From assembly GCA_020056965.1 (NCBI GenBank), contig JAGVGT010000089.1, positions 1 to 64,000 on the forward strand: a stretch of 64,000 nt of DNA, in the 5' to 3' direction. The position numbers were made by a program, and so were the translations under genes. Of this stretch, positions 17,209 to 55,600 are shown piece after piece; position 1 is the first letter of the stretch; each line of letters opens with the position of its first letter. Source of the stretch: Deltaproteobacteria bacterium (GTDB lineage Bacteria; Desulfobacterota; Desulfobulbia; Desulfobulbales; JAGXFP01). The notes below the pieces were generated by a model that saw only the letters and a list, made by a program, of their open reading frames with translations, did no database searches and was not told the DNA's origin.

Positions 17209-17529
17209 TTAACTCTGGCCCTTGCCCCAGAGCGGGTCGTTGCCGAACCTGTCCATCCACCATTCTTCATCGTCTAGTGGCGCTCGGTCGGGTTCCAGAG
17301 GGATCGGGTAGTTGAGGCAGTATTCGGTGAGGAGCTGGTAGGCCTCGGTCAGCTGGTGCATTTCAAGCCTTTCCCCATCCTCGGTTCGGGCCTCGGTCAG
17401 ATCGGGATGATGCGCTTTGGCCTTGCGGCGGTAGGCCAGCTTGATCTCCGCCAGGCTGGCGCAACGGTCCAAACCAAGGAGTTCCCGGGCGGACCTGAGT
17501 TGCCCCCTTTTATCGGGCTTTTTCCGCAT
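17209..17529 (-). CDS. Short J-domain (DnaJ-like) protein
   Basis: A 106-residue protein that is mostly a J domain. Helix I/II (ARELLGLDRCASLAEIKLAYRRKAKAH) leads into the HPD tripeptide at 41-43, and helix III (MHQLTEAYQLLTEYCLNY) follows. No Gly/Phe-rich or zinc-finger region is present, so it is a type III co-chaperone expected to stimulate a DnaK ATPase. The C-terminus is acidic and Trp-rich. The gene overlaps the end of plsY by 20 bases on the same strand, so the two are one transcription unit. Confidence 0.87.
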   Translation of the reverse strand: MRKKPDKRGQLRSARELLGLDRCASLAEIKLAYRRKAKAHHPDLTEARTEDGERLEMHQLTEAYQLLTEYCLNYPIPLEPDRAPLDDEEWWMDRFGNDPLWGKGQS

Positions 17530-18121
17530 CGCTCTTCTTCCAGCTTTTTTCCTGGCCCCGCAGCAGCCGGGCGATGTTCTCGTGGTGTTTAAGCCAGATT
17601 ACTGCCCCGACCAGGGCGGAAACCCCGGTCAGTTCAGGGGGCCCGCCCGCCAGCCAGATCAGCAGGGGCAGGGCGGCAGCGGCGGCGAGTGAACCCAGCG
17701 AGACATAGCCGGAGAGCCGGACGGTAGCCGCGAACAACGCCACCCCTGCCAAGGTGGGCAGCGGGGCGAGATAGAGATGGAGGCCCAGGGCGGTGGCTAC
17801 CCCCTTGCCACCCCGAAATTTCAGATAGACCGGGAAGCAGTGGCCCAGGAAGGCGGCCCCGCCGCACAGCATCACCCACTCCTTCGCCCCTGGCTGGTCG
17901 CCCAGCAGTTTGGCGGCCAGCAGCATGGGCAGGATGCCCTTGAACAGGTCGCTGACCAGGGTGAGGGCGCCCAGTTTCTTGCCGAGCAGACGGCCGACGT
18001 TGGTGGCGCCGATATTGCCGCTGCCCTGACGGCGGACATCGATGCCAGCCAGTTTTCCGTAGAGCAGGCCGAAGGGGATCGAACCCAGCAGATAGCCGAT
18101 ACTGATCAGAAGGTAGGTCAT
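17510..18121 (-). CDS. plsY: Glycerol-3-phosphate acyltransferase PlsY
   Basis: A 203-residue integral membrane enzyme that transfers the acyl group from acyl-phosphate to glycerol-3-phosphate, the first step of phospholipid synthesis. The PlsY motifs are present: GSIPFGLLYGK, then RRQGSGNIGATNVGR, and FRGGKGVATALG, with about five hydrophobic helices. Length is standard. It is the upstream gene of a two-gene leftward unit with the J-domain protein. The 246-base spacer upstream is shared with the divergent guanine deaminase gene and contains an FNR-like palindrome. Confidence 0.96.
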   Translation of the reverse strand: MTYLLISIGYLLGSIPFGLLYGKLAGIDVRRQGSGNIGATNVGRLLGKKLGALTLVSDLFKGILPMLLAAKLLGDQPGAKEWVMLCGGAAFLGHCFPVYLKFRGGKGVATALGLHLYLAPLPTLAGVALFAATVRLSGYVSLGSLAAAAALPLLIWLAGGPPELTGVSALVGAVIWLKHHENIARLLRGQEKSWKKSDAEKAR

Positions 18122-18294
18122 GGTCGCTCTGGTTGTTCAATGATTCTGGGGTGTTAGTGAAATGACGGCCTGATCATACCGTCTGGCGGCGCGGAGATAA
18201 AGCGAATTCTCTCGGGACGCCGGGCCGGAAAAATGTAAATGTGGCTTGAAGTGTCTCTACGATGAGGTAAATTAGCCTTCCGAACCGGTATTGT

Positions 18295-18308
18295 TTGATC
18301 TTAATCAA
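18295..18308 (+). promoter_or_regulatory. FNR/HcpR-type operator upstream of guaD
   Basis: The sequence TTGATCTTAATCAA is a perfect match to the FNR-family consensus TTGAT-N4-ATCAA. It lies 59 bases before the guanine deaminase start and 173 bases before the plsY start. A closely related site occurs at 19164-19177 upstream of hcp. Crp/Fnr-family control of guaD is inferred; no Crp/Fnr gene is in the window. Confidence 0.65.
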
Positions 18309-18367
18309 CAACTGGGTGTGCGAAGTTCCTGCACTTCCGCGTCGTTTCGTTTCAAAGTGAGGTAAGT

Positions 18368-18835
18368 ATGGACAATGGATTTTTGACAGAGGCCATCCGC
18401 CTGTCCGTCGATAAGATGCAGGCTGGTGAGGGCGGACCATTCGGGGCGGTGATCGTCCGATGCGGGGAAATCATCTCCCGGGGCTGGAACATGGTCACTT
18501 CCACCAACGATCCCACTGCCCACGCCGAGATGGTGGCGATCCGCGAGGCCTGTCGGATTCTGGAGACCTTCTGGCTGGGTGACTGTGAAATCTATGTGAG
18601 CTGCGAGCCCTGCCTGATGTGTCTGGCCGCCATCTATTGGTCCGGGATCCCCAAGGTCTTCTACGCCGCCACGGCCGAAGACGCCGCGGCTGCCGGCTTT
18701 GCCGATGCTTATATCTACCGCGAACTGGCCAATCCGCCGGCGGAAAGAAATCTTGAGATGCTGCAGGCGCAACGGCTGGAGGCCTTGGTTGCCTTCCAGC
18801 TCTGGGACGAGAAGGCGGACAAGATCGAGTACTAA
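18368..18835 (+). CDS. guaD: Guanine deaminase (cytidine-deaminase fold, GuaD type)
   Basis: A 155-residue zinc hydrolase converting guanine to xanthine. The zinc and catalytic residues are H52-A-E54 and the PCLMC motif (C82, C85). The sequence follows the Bacillus GuaD pattern through its length: GGPFGAVIV, NDPTAHAE, SCEPC, AIYW, the FYAAT/DAA/AGF stretch, and a C-terminus ending in Glu-Tyr. The C-terminal helix with Trp is the part that separates GuaD from tRNA adenosine deaminases, so GuaD is preferred. It is preceded by an FNR-like palindrome and followed by a tiny Lys-rich ORF about 100 bases downstream. Confidence 0.88.
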   Translation: MDNGFLTEAIRLSVDKMQAGEGGPFGAVIVRCGEIISRGWNMVTSTNDPTAHAEMVAIREACRILETFWLGDCEIYVSCEPCLMCLAAIYWSGIPKVFYAATAEDAAAAGFADAYIYRELANPPAERNLEMLQAQRLEALVAFQLWDEKADKIEY

Positions 18836-18936
18836 GGTGTATCTGGGGAAATAATGCTCCCGGCGGCGTAGCTGGGCCGGTTCTTTACGAGGGCGTGGGA
18901 GCTATCATTAAACAACATAATAAGGGAGGATGAAGC

Positions 18937-19047
18937 ATGAGCAAAGGCACAGACATGAAGAAGGCCGTCAAGAAAGAACCCACCAAGACCCTCAAGGAGA
19001 AAAAAGAGGCGAAAAAGCTGAAGAAGGAGCAGAAGAAAAGCCAGTGA
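18937..19047 (+). CDS. Lys-rich 36-residue mini-protein
   Basis: A very short gene: ATG 18937 with AGGGAGGA seven bases upstream, ending at TGA 19045-19047. The product has 36 residues, about half of them Lys, with the rest mostly Glu, Ala, Thr and Gln (it contains MKKAVKKEPTKTLKEKKEAK). It is predicted to be one charged helix without hydrophobic segments. The strong ribosome site supports translation. Function unknown; nucleic-acid or acidic-protein binding is one possibility from charge alone. It lies between guaD and hcp and stops before the HcpR-like site. Confidence 0.6.
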   Translation: MSKGTDMKKAVKKEPTKTLKEKKEAKKLKKEQKKSQ

Positions 19048-19163
19048 TCCTTGCTTCCCCCCATTCTGCCGGCCCGGAGCGGTTCGCGGGCCGGCAGCCA
19101 CCCCTCTTGCCGTTCCCCGCGACCCCGCCCTGGTCGGATATTTTTGCAGATTATCCCCGTTCG

Positions 19164-19205
19164 TTGATCTAAGTCAAAGTCTCCCGCCGTTCTTTCCAGT
19201 ATCCT
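19164..19205 (+). promoter_or_regulatory. HcpR/FNR-like operator and promoter of hcp
   Basis: TTGATCTAAGTCAA at 19164-19177 is a near-perfect FNR/HcpR-type palindrome. A -10 candidate TATCCT (19200-19205) would put transcription start near 19212. That places the operator centre about 41.5 bases upstream, the class II activator position. Hcp genes in this group of bacteria are known to be controlled by Crp/Fnr-family HcpR regulators in response to nitrosative stress. The spacing match is my calculation; activation is inferred. Confidence 0.62.
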
Positions 19206-19327
19206 CCAGTCAAACGATACGTTCGCTGCCCCAGAGATGGCGGCCGGAATAGTTTGTATTGCCGAGAACTTTACAGCTAGAATTTCAATAAGTTCAGGAA
19301 TTAATTAATTTAAACGGAGGATGTGAA

Positions 19328-21029: not shown

Positions 21030-21794
21030 ATGCAATGCCCCGGACAAGACAGTCGCTACTGGGATGGGGCCGCGGTTTTCGAGGCCCCTTGCCACAAGTG
21101 CGGTTCGGTGGTGGAGTTCTTCAAGGACGACAACACCAGGAAGTGCGGTGGGTGTGGGGAGAAGGTCTTAAATCCCCGGATGGATTTTGGCTGTGCCGCT
21201 TACTGCCCCCACGCCGCCCAGTGTTTGGGCGAATTGCCGCCGGGGCTGTTGGCCGGCAAGCAGAACCTGCTTCGGGAGCGAGTGGCCATTGAGATGAAGA
21301 AGTACTTCGGCCAGGATTTTCGCCGGATCGGCCATGCCAGTCGGGTCGCCCGCTACGTCGAGGAGATCGGCAAACTATTGGCCGCCCAGGTGGACCCTCC
21401 AGCCGATTACAACCCGGCCGTGGCGGGGATCGTCGCCTATCTCCACGATATCGGCATCAAGGAGGCGGAGCGCAAGTTCAATAGCTCTTCTCCCCATTAC
21501 CAACATCAGGAAGGGCCGCCGGTGGCCCGGGAAATCCTCACCAAACTGGGGGCGCCGCAGGGGCTGATCGATGAGGTCTGCGAGATTATTGGCCACCACC
21601 ACCATCCCCGGCCCGAAGAACCCACGAATTTCAGGGTCCTCTACGATGCCGATCTGATCGTCAATCTGGAGGAAAAGCAACAGGAAGAACCATCCGCCCC
21701 CGGCCATTTGGCCAAGGTGGTGGCATCCTCCTTCCTGACCGAGGCCGGGGCCAAAGTGGCGGCCCGGGTCTTTGCCCTGTCTCAAGCGAGTTAA
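21030..21794 (+). CDS. Zinc-ribbon HD-domain phosphohydrolase
   Basis: A 254-residue protein combining an N-terminal zinc ribbon (C21, C24, C39, C42), further Cys/His residues in CAAYCPHAAQC (55-65), and an HD domain: H102 in GHASRVARYVEEI, the HD pair H139-D140 in YLHDIGI, and the GHHHHP segment later. HD proteins hydrolyse phosphate esters or nucleotides; this one's substrate is unknown. It has AAAGGAGG upstream of its ATG. Its place between hcp and a ferredoxin gene suggests a link to redox or nitrosative stress, perhaps as a Cys-based sensor, but that is inference. Confidence 0.82.
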   Translation: MQCPGQDSRYWDGAAVFEAPCHKCGSVVEFFKDDNTRKCGGCGEKVLNPRMDFGCAAYCPHAAQCLGELPPGLLAGKQNLLRERVAIEMKKYFGQDFRRIGHASRVARYVEEIGKLLAAQVDPPADYNPAVAGIVAYLHDIGIKEAERKFNSSSPHYQHQEGPPVAREILTKLGAPQGLIDEVCEIIGHHHHPRPEEPTNFRVLYDADLIVNLEEKQQEEPSAPGHLAKVVASSFLTEAGAKVAARVFALSQAS

Positions 21795-21817: not shown

Positions 21818-22573
21818 ATGAAGGTTACCAGGAAAATTATCGAGATCGACGAAACGCTCTGCAACGGCTGCGGCCAGTGTGTGCCCAACTGCGCCGAGGG
21901 CGCCCTGCAGATCATCGACGGCAAGGCCCGGATGCTGGCTGAAAAATACTGTGACGGCCTGGGCGCCTGTCTGGGTGAATGCCCGGTGGGGGCGTTACGG
22001 ATCGTCGAGCGGCTGGCCGAAGACTTTGACGAGGCGGCAGTTGAGGAGTTGTTGAAGAATCGCCCGCCGGTCGCAGTGGGCCAGCTGCATTCCCCACCTC
22101 CCGGCGGTTGTCCTTCCGCCAACCTGCAGATGTTTGGTAGCCAGAGCCCCTGCCAGGCGGCCAACCGTCCGGTGGCCACCGCCCCGGCCGGCGCCTCAGC
22201 CTTGAGCCACTGGCCGGTGCAGATCCGGCTGGTGCCGCCCACGGCGCCTTTCCTCAAGGGGTGCGATCTATTGGTGGCGGCCGACTGCACTCCTTTGGCC
22301 TACCCGGATTTTCATCGGGATTTTCTGGCCGGTCGCATGGTGCTGATGGGTTGCCCCAAGTTTGACGATGCCCCTGCGTACGTGCAAAAATTCAAGGAGA
22401 TTTTCGAAACCGCCCAGCCCCGGTCGGTGACCCTGTTGATCATGGAGGTGCCTTGTTGCGGCAGCATGCGCAACATTGTCACCGAGGCCCTGAAGCTTTC
22501 CGGGCTGGCGATCAAGGTTTCGGAGGCGGTGATCGGGGTGCGCGGCGAGGTGGTGTCGCGGCGGGACTGGTAG
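21818..22573 (+). CDS. 4Fe-4S ferredoxin-domain protein with C-terminal extension
   Basis: A 251-residue protein. The N-terminal 65 residues form a ferredoxin domain with C15, C18, C21, C25 (CNGCGQCVPNC) and a second set C45, C51, C55 (YCDGLGACLGECP). A Pro/Ala-rich linker (about 85-145) and a C-terminal domain (about 145-251) follow. The latter has ADCTP, GCPKFD and EVPCCGSM, suggesting further cluster or thiol chemistry. This architecture is common in anaerobes and is often found near hcp. It starts 23 bases after the HD gene with AAAGGCGG upstream and is probably co-transcribed. It could deliver electrons to Hcp (inference). Confidence 0.85.
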   Translation: MKVTRKIIEIDETLCNGCGQCVPNCAEGALQIIDGKARMLAEKYCDGLGACLGECPVGALRIVERLAEDFDEAAVEELLKNRPPVAVGQLHSPPPGGCPSANLQMFGSQSPCQAANRPVATAPAGASALSHWPVQIRLVPPTAPFLKGCDLLVAADCTPLAYPDFHRDFLAGRMVLMGCPKFDDAPAYVQKFKEIFETAQPRSVTLLIMEVPCCGSMRNIVTEALKLSGLAIKVSEAVIGVRGEVVSRRDW

Positions 22574-52698: not shown

Positions 52699-55600
52699 AA
52701 GCTTGCTCCCAGTACATAATTAGCCCAATTATAGCAATTATGAAATTTTAAACTGTATATATGCCATGTACTCTTTTCCTTTTGTATTTTTTCCTTGATC
52801 TTTTTTTCCATACAAGAATCATCCGTAACGAGAGTGCACGAAATCATTGCACCTTCTGGTTCGATCCAACCTGGCACCGGCGTTATTACGGCAAGATTTT
52901 CATATTTTTGCTTCGGAGCAAGCCCCCAACCGCCAATTCCATCTACCCACAAATATCTATGACCTATTCCAAGGTAATCATATACAACATGCGGTACTCC
53001 TTTGAGAGGTCTTGTGCAAAGATACACACTCTGTCCGGTTGGATCGGTGTTGTTAATCGGATTTTCGGCAACGTACGAAAATTGGTTGATCCCGCCCTCA
53101 AACCCGATCGGATCTTTCGAAATAAACCTCCCTACCTTGGCATCATAGTATCTTGCCCTGTAGAAATACAACTCGCTTTCCTTGTCCCACTCACGGCCGG
53201 TGTATGTATATGGCTGCTTCACCCGGTTCATCTGATCGTGCAGGTTACCGAAGGAGTCATACTGGTACTCCTGCGCCCCCTTGCCCTTGGCGTCGGTCAA
53301 CGCCACTATACTCCCCAACCCATCGGCGTGGTAGTAGTAGGTGGACTTGCCCTGAACCAGCACCAGCGGCTCGTCGATGCCGGGGCCGTGGAGGTATCGA
53401 TTGGTGATCTTGCCGGTGGCATCGGTTTCCAGGAGGATGTCTTCGTTGTCGTAGAGGTAACGGGTGACGCGGGTCTGGGGCTTGCCGTCTTCCCGTTCGG
53501 TGACGCGCTTTTCGACTCTTCTGCCCATGGGGTCGTAGGCGAAGGTGACGGTTGCCGCCTCATCATCGCCGTGCTTGACCACCTCGACCAGGCGGTTCTC
53601 GAAGTCGTAACGGTAGCTCCAGCGCTCATCATCGTCGTCGCCATCCTTGCCGGCCTTGGCGATCAGGTTGCCGTTACGGTCGTACTGGTAACGGTAACGC
53701 TGGTCTTCCCGCAAGCGATTGGTCGCATCGTAAACAGAGCCGGGCTGGTGTTCATGGCTGGCCGGACCGCTCAGCCGGTTGCCCACCGGATCGTATTTGT
53801 AGCGCTCACTGTTTCCGTACCCTTCGCCCTCGCCACGCCCATCGTCATCCTCGTCATCGTCCCCGTCATCATCGTCTTCGTCATGCTCGTCGTCCCCACC
53901 CGGCCGGGCCGAGAGCAAGCGGTAGATGGAGTCGTAACCATAGCGTAATTCCTCCCCGGTCGTGGCCTTACTCAGCCGGTTGCCGACTGCATCGTGACTG
54001 TACGCGCTTTTGGCCACCACCTGCCGGGCCGAGTTCTTGTGAACCAGGCTGGTCAACCGGCCGCCATCGTCGTAAGAATATGCGGCAACCACGCCGTTGG
54101 GATAGGTGAGGGAATTCCTGCGTCCGGACTGGTCGTAGCCGAAGACAAAATCCCCACCGCTACGAATCTTCCCCAGCCGCCCGGCCGGGTCATATTCGTA
54201 GCCGATCACCTTGCCATCAGGCCCGGTCATCTTGACCTTGCGCCCGGCTGTGTCGTATGCGTAAGCGATTTTCCGGCCCAGCCGGTTGGTGACGCTGGCC
54301 AATCTCCCGTTCGTGTCGTAGGCATAGAGATAGCTTTCGGCGGTGTTGGCGGCGGTCAGGATATTGCCCCGGGCGTCGTAGCTGAAAATTTCTTCGCTGT
54401 TGTCCGGATAGAGCCTCTTCAGCAGCCGCCCCAGCGTATCATAACTGTAGCGGATAGTCGCCCCGTTGGCGTCGGTCTTTGCAGTCAAATTACCTTTGGC
54501 GTCGTATAAATAGGCAGTGACATTGCCCAGGGGATCGACTTCCTTGACCAACCGCCCGAGGCTGTCATAATCGAAGGTGGTGGCGTGACCGTTGGCGTCG
54601 GTCAGGGCGGTGAGTTTATTCACCCCGCCGGAACAGGTGGCGCAACCGCTGCCGCCGCCGTAGCTGAAGATCGTGACTTGGCCTAAGGCATCGGTGCTCT
54701 TCACCACCTGCCCTTGGGCGTTGAAATCGTAAAAAGTGGCATTGCCGTTGGCATCGATCTGGCTGGTTCGGTTGCCGTTGGCGTCGAAGCCGGCACTGGT
54801 CACCCCGCCCAGGGGATCGGTGGTGGAGACCAGATTCCCGGCGGCGTCATAGGTGAAGGTGGTCACCCCGCCCTGGGGATCGGTCTGGGTCAATAGCCGC
54901 CCAGCTGCATCGTACTCCATTGAGGTCTTGGCCCCGGCCGGATCGGTGATGGCGATCAGGTTGCCCGCCGCATCGTAGGCCATGCTGGTGACGCCGCCAG
55001 CTGCGTCGGTGACGCTGGTTACTCGCCCGGCGGTATCGTAAATATAGACCGTTGTGGCCCCGGCCGGGTCGGTGATGTTCAGCAGGTTGCCCTGCTCGTC
55101 ATAGCTGTAGGAGGTAACCCCGCCCGCCGTGTCGCTAACGCTGGTGGTCTGGCCGGACTCGTTGTAGGTGTAGGCGGTGGTCTGCCCGGCCGGATCGGTG
55201 GTGGAAAGCTGATTGCCAGCAACGTCATAGGTGTGGCTGGTCACCCCACCGTCCGGCCCGGTTTCGGAGAGTTGGTTGCCGGCCGCATCGTAGGTGTAGC
55301 TGGTGCTGTTGCCCTGGGGATCAACCTTGGTAAGGAGATCGCCGTTCCCGGTATCGTAGGTGTAGCGCCAGACTCCGCCATCCTTTTCGACCAGCTCGCT
55401 AGTCAAGATCTGTCCCGCGCCGGTCGGGTAGTTGATGGTGCGCACCCGCCCCTCGGGATCGGTGGCGGTCAGCACCCGGTACTGGTCGTCATAGGTGTAG
55501 GTGGTGAGGTTGCCGTTCGGGTCCATCTTGCTCAGCAGGAAACCGTTGGCGTCGTATGTGTAATCCCAGAAGCGGGCGCCGGGATAAGCGGCCCCGACCA

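Follow-up and report, generated by a model that had tools for sequence, protein, structure and literature searches.

The window, by which we mean the whole analysed stretch of 64,000 nucleotides, carries a guaD-like deaminase gene followed by hcp on the forward strand, with plsY as the divergent neighbour of guaD and with genes for an HD-domain protein and a ferredoxin-type protein behind hcp (Table 1). The zinc motifs of the CDA fold are HAE and PCxxC, and the guaD translation carries TAHAEM and EPCLMC; the product has the cytidine deaminase fold, and among solved structures the guanine deaminase of B. subtilis is the one closest to it. The product is described here as guaD-like, i.e., a guanine deaminase of the B. 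subtilis type with guanine as its predicted substrate. Judging by the spacing, the HD-domain and ferredoxin-type genes are probably part of the hcp transcript. Between guaD and hcp there is also a lysine-rich open reading frame of 36 residues (MSKGTDMKKAVKKEPTKTLKEKKEAKKLKKEQKKSQ, 18937-19047, forward strand) with a good ribosome-binding sequence; a search for lysine-rich reading frames found it behind guaD at 1 of 77 loci.

Table 1. Genes and predicted regulatory features of the guaD-hcp region (positions in the window).
Feature	Position	Strand	Evidence
plsY, divergent neighbour of guaD	17510..18121	-	TIGR00023, 172.6 bits (cut-off 137.2)
Palindrome TTGATCTTAATCAA before guaD, probably a chance match	18295..18308	+	in 1/80 guaD upstream regions; 11.8 bits; no -10 box at class II spacing
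guaD-like deaminase, 155 aa	18368..18835	+	PF00383; best PDB matches 1TIY/1WKQ, E 5e-48
HcpR operator of hcp (predicted), TTGATCTAAGTCAA	19164..19177	+	conserved in 48/50 hcp upstream regions; 23.0 bits
-10 box of the hcp promoter, TATCCT	19200..19205	+	29.5 bases from operator centre; conserved there in about 28/30 promoters
Probable hcp transcription start	19212..19213	+	A 42.5 bases past operator centre in 25/30 promoters
hcp, hybrid cluster protein / hydroxylamine reductase, full-length, 542 aa	19328..20956	+	NF003658, 803.5 bits (cut-off 367); PF03063
HD-domain protein, 74 bases after hcp	21030..21794	+	PF01966; spacing
4Fe-4S ferredoxin-type protein	21818..22573	+	Fer4 models; spacing

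A first-pass annotation of this DNA had pointed to two 14-mers, at 18295 and 19164, with two differences and a common CTWA core, and this description is correct: TTGATCTTAATCAA, upstream of guaD, and TTGATCTAAGTCAA, upstream of hcp and followed by AG, are identical, CTWA included, except at positions 8 and 10. With up to two mismatches, TTGATCTWARTCAA has 3 matches in the window vs. 0.63 expected, a number reached in 4 of 100 shuffles, while TTGAYNNNNRTCAA appeared in 21 of 20,000 shuffles of the plsY-guaD gap and in 24 of 20,000 shuffles of the guaD-hcp gap. For the gap in which it lies, either site is rare, yet in a genome with at least 1000 gaps some chance sites are to be expected. Across the whole 3.08 Mb assembly (completeness approx. 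90%) there are 26 matches of TTGAYNNNNRTCAA, vs. 5 of a reversed control pattern.

The hcp site is kept in the relatives. Among 58 genomes (own included), the upstream regions of the best 30 hcp matches all contain TTGAYNNNNRTCAA, as do those of 18 out of 20 further hcp genes, the two without it being G003's second paralogue and the hcp of G051; this set of 50 genes leaves out truncated hcp matches and more distant paralogues. When the 30 promoters are aligned on the site, the operator consensus is TTGAyyTArGTCAArG, there is an A-rich stretch approx. 20 bases upstream of the site centre, and a TAnnnT hexamer starts 29.5 bases from the centre (T in 28 promoters, A in 28 and the last T in 27). 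In our window the operator centre is 19170.5 and TATCCT lies at this same distance, so that a start near 19212-19213 would put the centre at -41.5/-42.5. The predicted start thus gives the class II arrangement, in which an activator site at about -41.5 replaces the -35 box, and the operator itself is a TTGAY-N4-RTCAA palindrome before hcp, as expected for the HcpR1 regulon. The scoring matrix was trained on the hcp promoters of 29 relatives, with our own hcp left out; the score of the hcp site falls within the range of the training set (20.3-28.5 bits), and the whole-promoter score is 34.7 for hcp and never exceeds 6 in the rest of the window. The hcp half of the first-pass annotation, which proposed a TATCCT -10 box, a site centre about 41.5 bases before the start and class II activation, is strongly supported by this comparison across the order, since the spacing recurs in the 30 aligned promoters and both the site and the -10 box are conserved. 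The mRNA leaders of hcp would be long, with 83-157 bases between the site centre and the start codon in the 30 aligned promoters, and CCTTTGGCT is common to the hcp leaders of G017, G027 and G038.

Two full Crp/Fnr proteins were found in the genome, namely P0001, a protein without cysteine whose recognition helix is GTIPETLSR, and a second one with a CRP-like SSREMVSR helix. In the available part of their paper (PMC1274295), Rodionov et al. link a TTGAC-type motif to regulators in which residue 180 is Ser or Pro and residue 181 is Glu, and by this rule P0001, with Pro180 and Glu181, is a candidate HcpR. Going by search matches, orthologues of P0001 are present in 53 of the 58 genomes, own included, whereas the search found none in G001 and G004. 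In all 30 hcpR loci examined the helix reads GTIPET[LM]SR, and in five relatives (G025, G034, G041, G048, G054) the coordinates place hcpR divergently next to hcp. G002 and G012 have one Crp/Fnr match each, at HcpR, and no other. P0001 is therefore put forward as the candidate HcpR1-type Crp/Fnr protein of this species, with a helix that fits the hcp motif.

The HcpR regulon was predicted in 2004-2005 (PMC545781, PMC1274295, in the parts available to us). In these parts, the regulon of Desulfuromonas, Geobacter and Desulfotalea has the same type of motif before hcp (wyTTGACnnnnGTCAArw), a Crp/Fnr regulator whose residue 180 is Ser or Pro, and hemerythrin-like, cytochrome and ferredoxin genes among its targets, all of which it shares with the present system. 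What differs here, as far as those parts go, is that the operator, TTGAyyTArGTCAArG, is slightly asymmetric and has a class II -10 box at a fixed distance, that many uncultured relatives are involved, and that NIR_SIR-YgbA and cupin genes are among the predicted targets. HcpR/HcpR1 of Desulfovibrio are likewise Crp/Fnr regulators of the nitrosative-stress response, but they read TGTGA-N6-TCACA, and hcp of D. desulfuricans 27774 is assigned to HcpR2 (PMC5701242, available part). The hcp site can be counted, at a fitting position, among the predicted sites of this already described regulon. A link to guaD is another matter: the word “deaminase” does not occur in the available part of PMC545781, nor “guanine deaminase” in that of PMC1274295, the open-licence literature yielded no paper with both guanine deaminase and hybrid cluster protein, and among open-licence papers with hcpR and deaminase the titles and opening lines of the abstracts mention no bacterial guaD-hcp link.

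Of 257 genomes of the order, 81 gave a guaD orthologue (E ≤ 1e-42), and 80 upstream regions were examined (77 + 3, two of the three with just 167 and 119 bases upstream), while the 81st gene (G254), cut off by the contig end, was left out. Within 400 bases upstream of guaD, TTGAYNNNNRTCAA was present in our own genome only. The guaD site scores about half as many bits as the hcp site, and a match at 53287 of the window scores the same 11.8 bits. It carries T at +0.5, where the 30 hcp sites without exception show A or G, A at +2.5, where 26 of 30 have G, and A at +8.5, where 29 of 30 have the near-invariant flanking G. No A2/T6 hexamer starts 26.5-35.5 bases downstream of its centre, neither the refined operator nor its promoter spacing is matched before guaD, and the automatic scan listed no promoter there. 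Against a chance reading stand the palindrome itself, a perfect one seldom reached in shuffles of that gap, and the low score of the accepted C21 site, 14.2 bits toward its gene. All in all, the guaD palindrome most likely arose by chance; at best it would be a very young gain confined to this species. As the comparison set contains no other species of the genus, such a recent gain is compatible with the counts. Control of plsY by the same site was considered and rejected: there is a TAATTT at +27.5 on the plsY strand, but in that direction the score is just 10.3 for the site and -18.7 for the whole promoter. Riboswitches and other known RNAs upstream of guaD were also looked for, and a comparison of the window and of 12 of the 77 guaD loci with Rfam gave nothing at the gathering score.

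The neighbourhood of the two genes is much more widespread than the site before guaD. At least 24 of 77 genomes, from six families, have guaD ahead of hcp in the same orientation, a lower bound given that the fetched stretches are of unequal length. The pair is present in 7/7 genomes of family f5, 4/4 of f15, 4/5 of f1, 1/1 of f9, 6/15 of f3 and 2/7 of f6, and in 0/36 of f12 and f13 and 0/2 of f2 and f7; the divergent plsY upstream of guaD is likewise seen in f1 and in G012. An exact site lies less than 200 bases from the hcp start in 22 of the 24 pairs and 274 bases from it in G219, while in G022, the only pair without an exact site, the nearest one has one mismatch. This persistence of the site near the hcp start suggests an old neighbourhood in which hcp has its own promoter. 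A single operon of guaD and hcp read from the HcpR promoter was rejected, because wherever guaD precedes hcp this promoter lies between the two genes. Among 80 GuaD loci of named genomes (mostly of other phyla, by title), the hcp start motif is present in 2, which are probably the same records as G004 and G255.

With gene boundaries from a crude gene caller, 7 of the 26 genomic matches of TTGAYNNNNRTCAA were judged intergenic: those of hcp and guaD and five more, on contigs C25, C21, C47, C51 and C96. The C25 site, a 14-mer identical to that of hcp, precedes a multihaem cytochrome that weakly resembles hydrazine dehydrogenase (L004, 185-1393; relatives L278, L287, L291). The C21 site stands before the gene of a small protein with a NIR_SIR half-domain, behind which comes a YgbA_NO protein (L003, 420-1425; relatives L282, L286), has a class II -10 box TATGCT, and scores 14.2 bits toward its gene and 19.5 in the other direction. 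The C47 site precedes a hemerythrin-PAS protein, and those of C51 and C96 small cupins, the C96 cupin (L031, 2452-2769; just below the Pfam cut-off) being divergent to an M20 peptidase and having in G004 a counterpart, L290, also with an HcpR-type site. These other intergenic sites have an A2/T6 hexamer, of varying quality, 29.5-31.5 bases from the centre toward the gene.

The hcp promoters of relatives also yielded a refined pattern, TTGAYNTRRRTCAANG, which matches our genome exactly four times (C25, C51, hcp and C96), and the guaD site is absent from its matches even at one mismatch; the genome-wide scan suggested by the first-pass annotation thus listed hcp and guaD together at the level of the crude pattern and retained hcp alone of the two at the refined level. 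Five relatives together have 15 distinct exact places, of which all but G004:C345 were read: five lie before hcp and three before the multihaem cytochrome (G001, G002, G004), NIR_SIR has two (G003, G012), the M20-cupin locus likewise has two (one in G004, the other in G002 but there just on the M20 side), hemerythrin-PAS has one (G012), and the last falls within coding sequence (G002:C46). Among the places read, neither guaD nor the C51 site recurs. That other sites recur in relatives and the guaD site does not is a telling contrast against guaD. As predicted targets, the NIR_SIR-YgbA_NO pair, the multihaem cytochrome and the hemerythrin protein would fit a response to nitrosative stress.

We therefore consider it likely, with a probability of about 85%, that an HcpR1-type activator drives hcp from a class II site, that the guaD palindrome arose by chance and that guaD is outside the regulon. 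The regulator would bind the operator before hcp, whose centre lies 41.5-42.5 bases ahead of the predicted start, and activate the promoter from there, the operator taking the role of a -35 box and the signal probably being nitric oxide or nitrite stress; the promoter would serve hcp and the HD-domain and ferredoxin-type genes behind it, and guaD would be an old neighbour of hcp with a promoter of its own. The first-pass annotation had instead regarded both sites as FNR/HcpR-like and placed both genes under one regulator, and of this the part concerning hcp stands, while for guaD it finds no support, as none of the 79 other guaD upstream regions examined has the site and our own copy shows neither the flanking G nor a -10 box at class II spacing. 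Joint control by HcpR in this species alone, with the guaD site as a recent gain, seems unlikely. The palindrome is perfect, close to hcp and uncommon for its gap, and HcpR is the only full Crp/Fnr protein found with a fitting helix, but the low conservation, a score equalled elsewhere in the window, more than one mismatch from the refined consensus and the empty promoter scan all speak against it. If HcpR did control guaD, a repressor site downstream of the start would be more likely, since no class II -10 box follows the site; a weak TTGAAG-16-TAAATT promoter, seen by eye at 18246-18273, would put the site near +22, and HcpR is thought to repress some Desulfovibrio genes (PMC545781, available part).

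A different, FNR-like Crp/Fnr protein reading TTGAT-N4-ATCAA could also be imagined for guaD. The guaD palindrome equals the textbook FNR consensus, and with the assembly about 90% complete such a regulator could be missing from it. We regard this as extremely improbable, given that only HcpR and the SSREMVSR protein were found as full Crp/Fnr proteins, that G002 and G012 have their single Crp/Fnr match at HcpR, and that the guaD site is not conserved.

To hypothesize further, a newly arisen operator beside the old guaD-hcp pair could have drawn the guanine deaminase of this lineage into the nitrosative-stress response under HcpR, which we think improbable; if true, purine salvage or the clearing of NO-damaged guanine would perhaps matter under nitrosative stress, and purine metabolism would be tied to that stress, although the comparison argues against it. 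For hcp itself, the comparison shows a predicted HcpR promoter whose rigid class II layout is kept across many relatives, and it yields a short list of predicted HcpR targets for the family.
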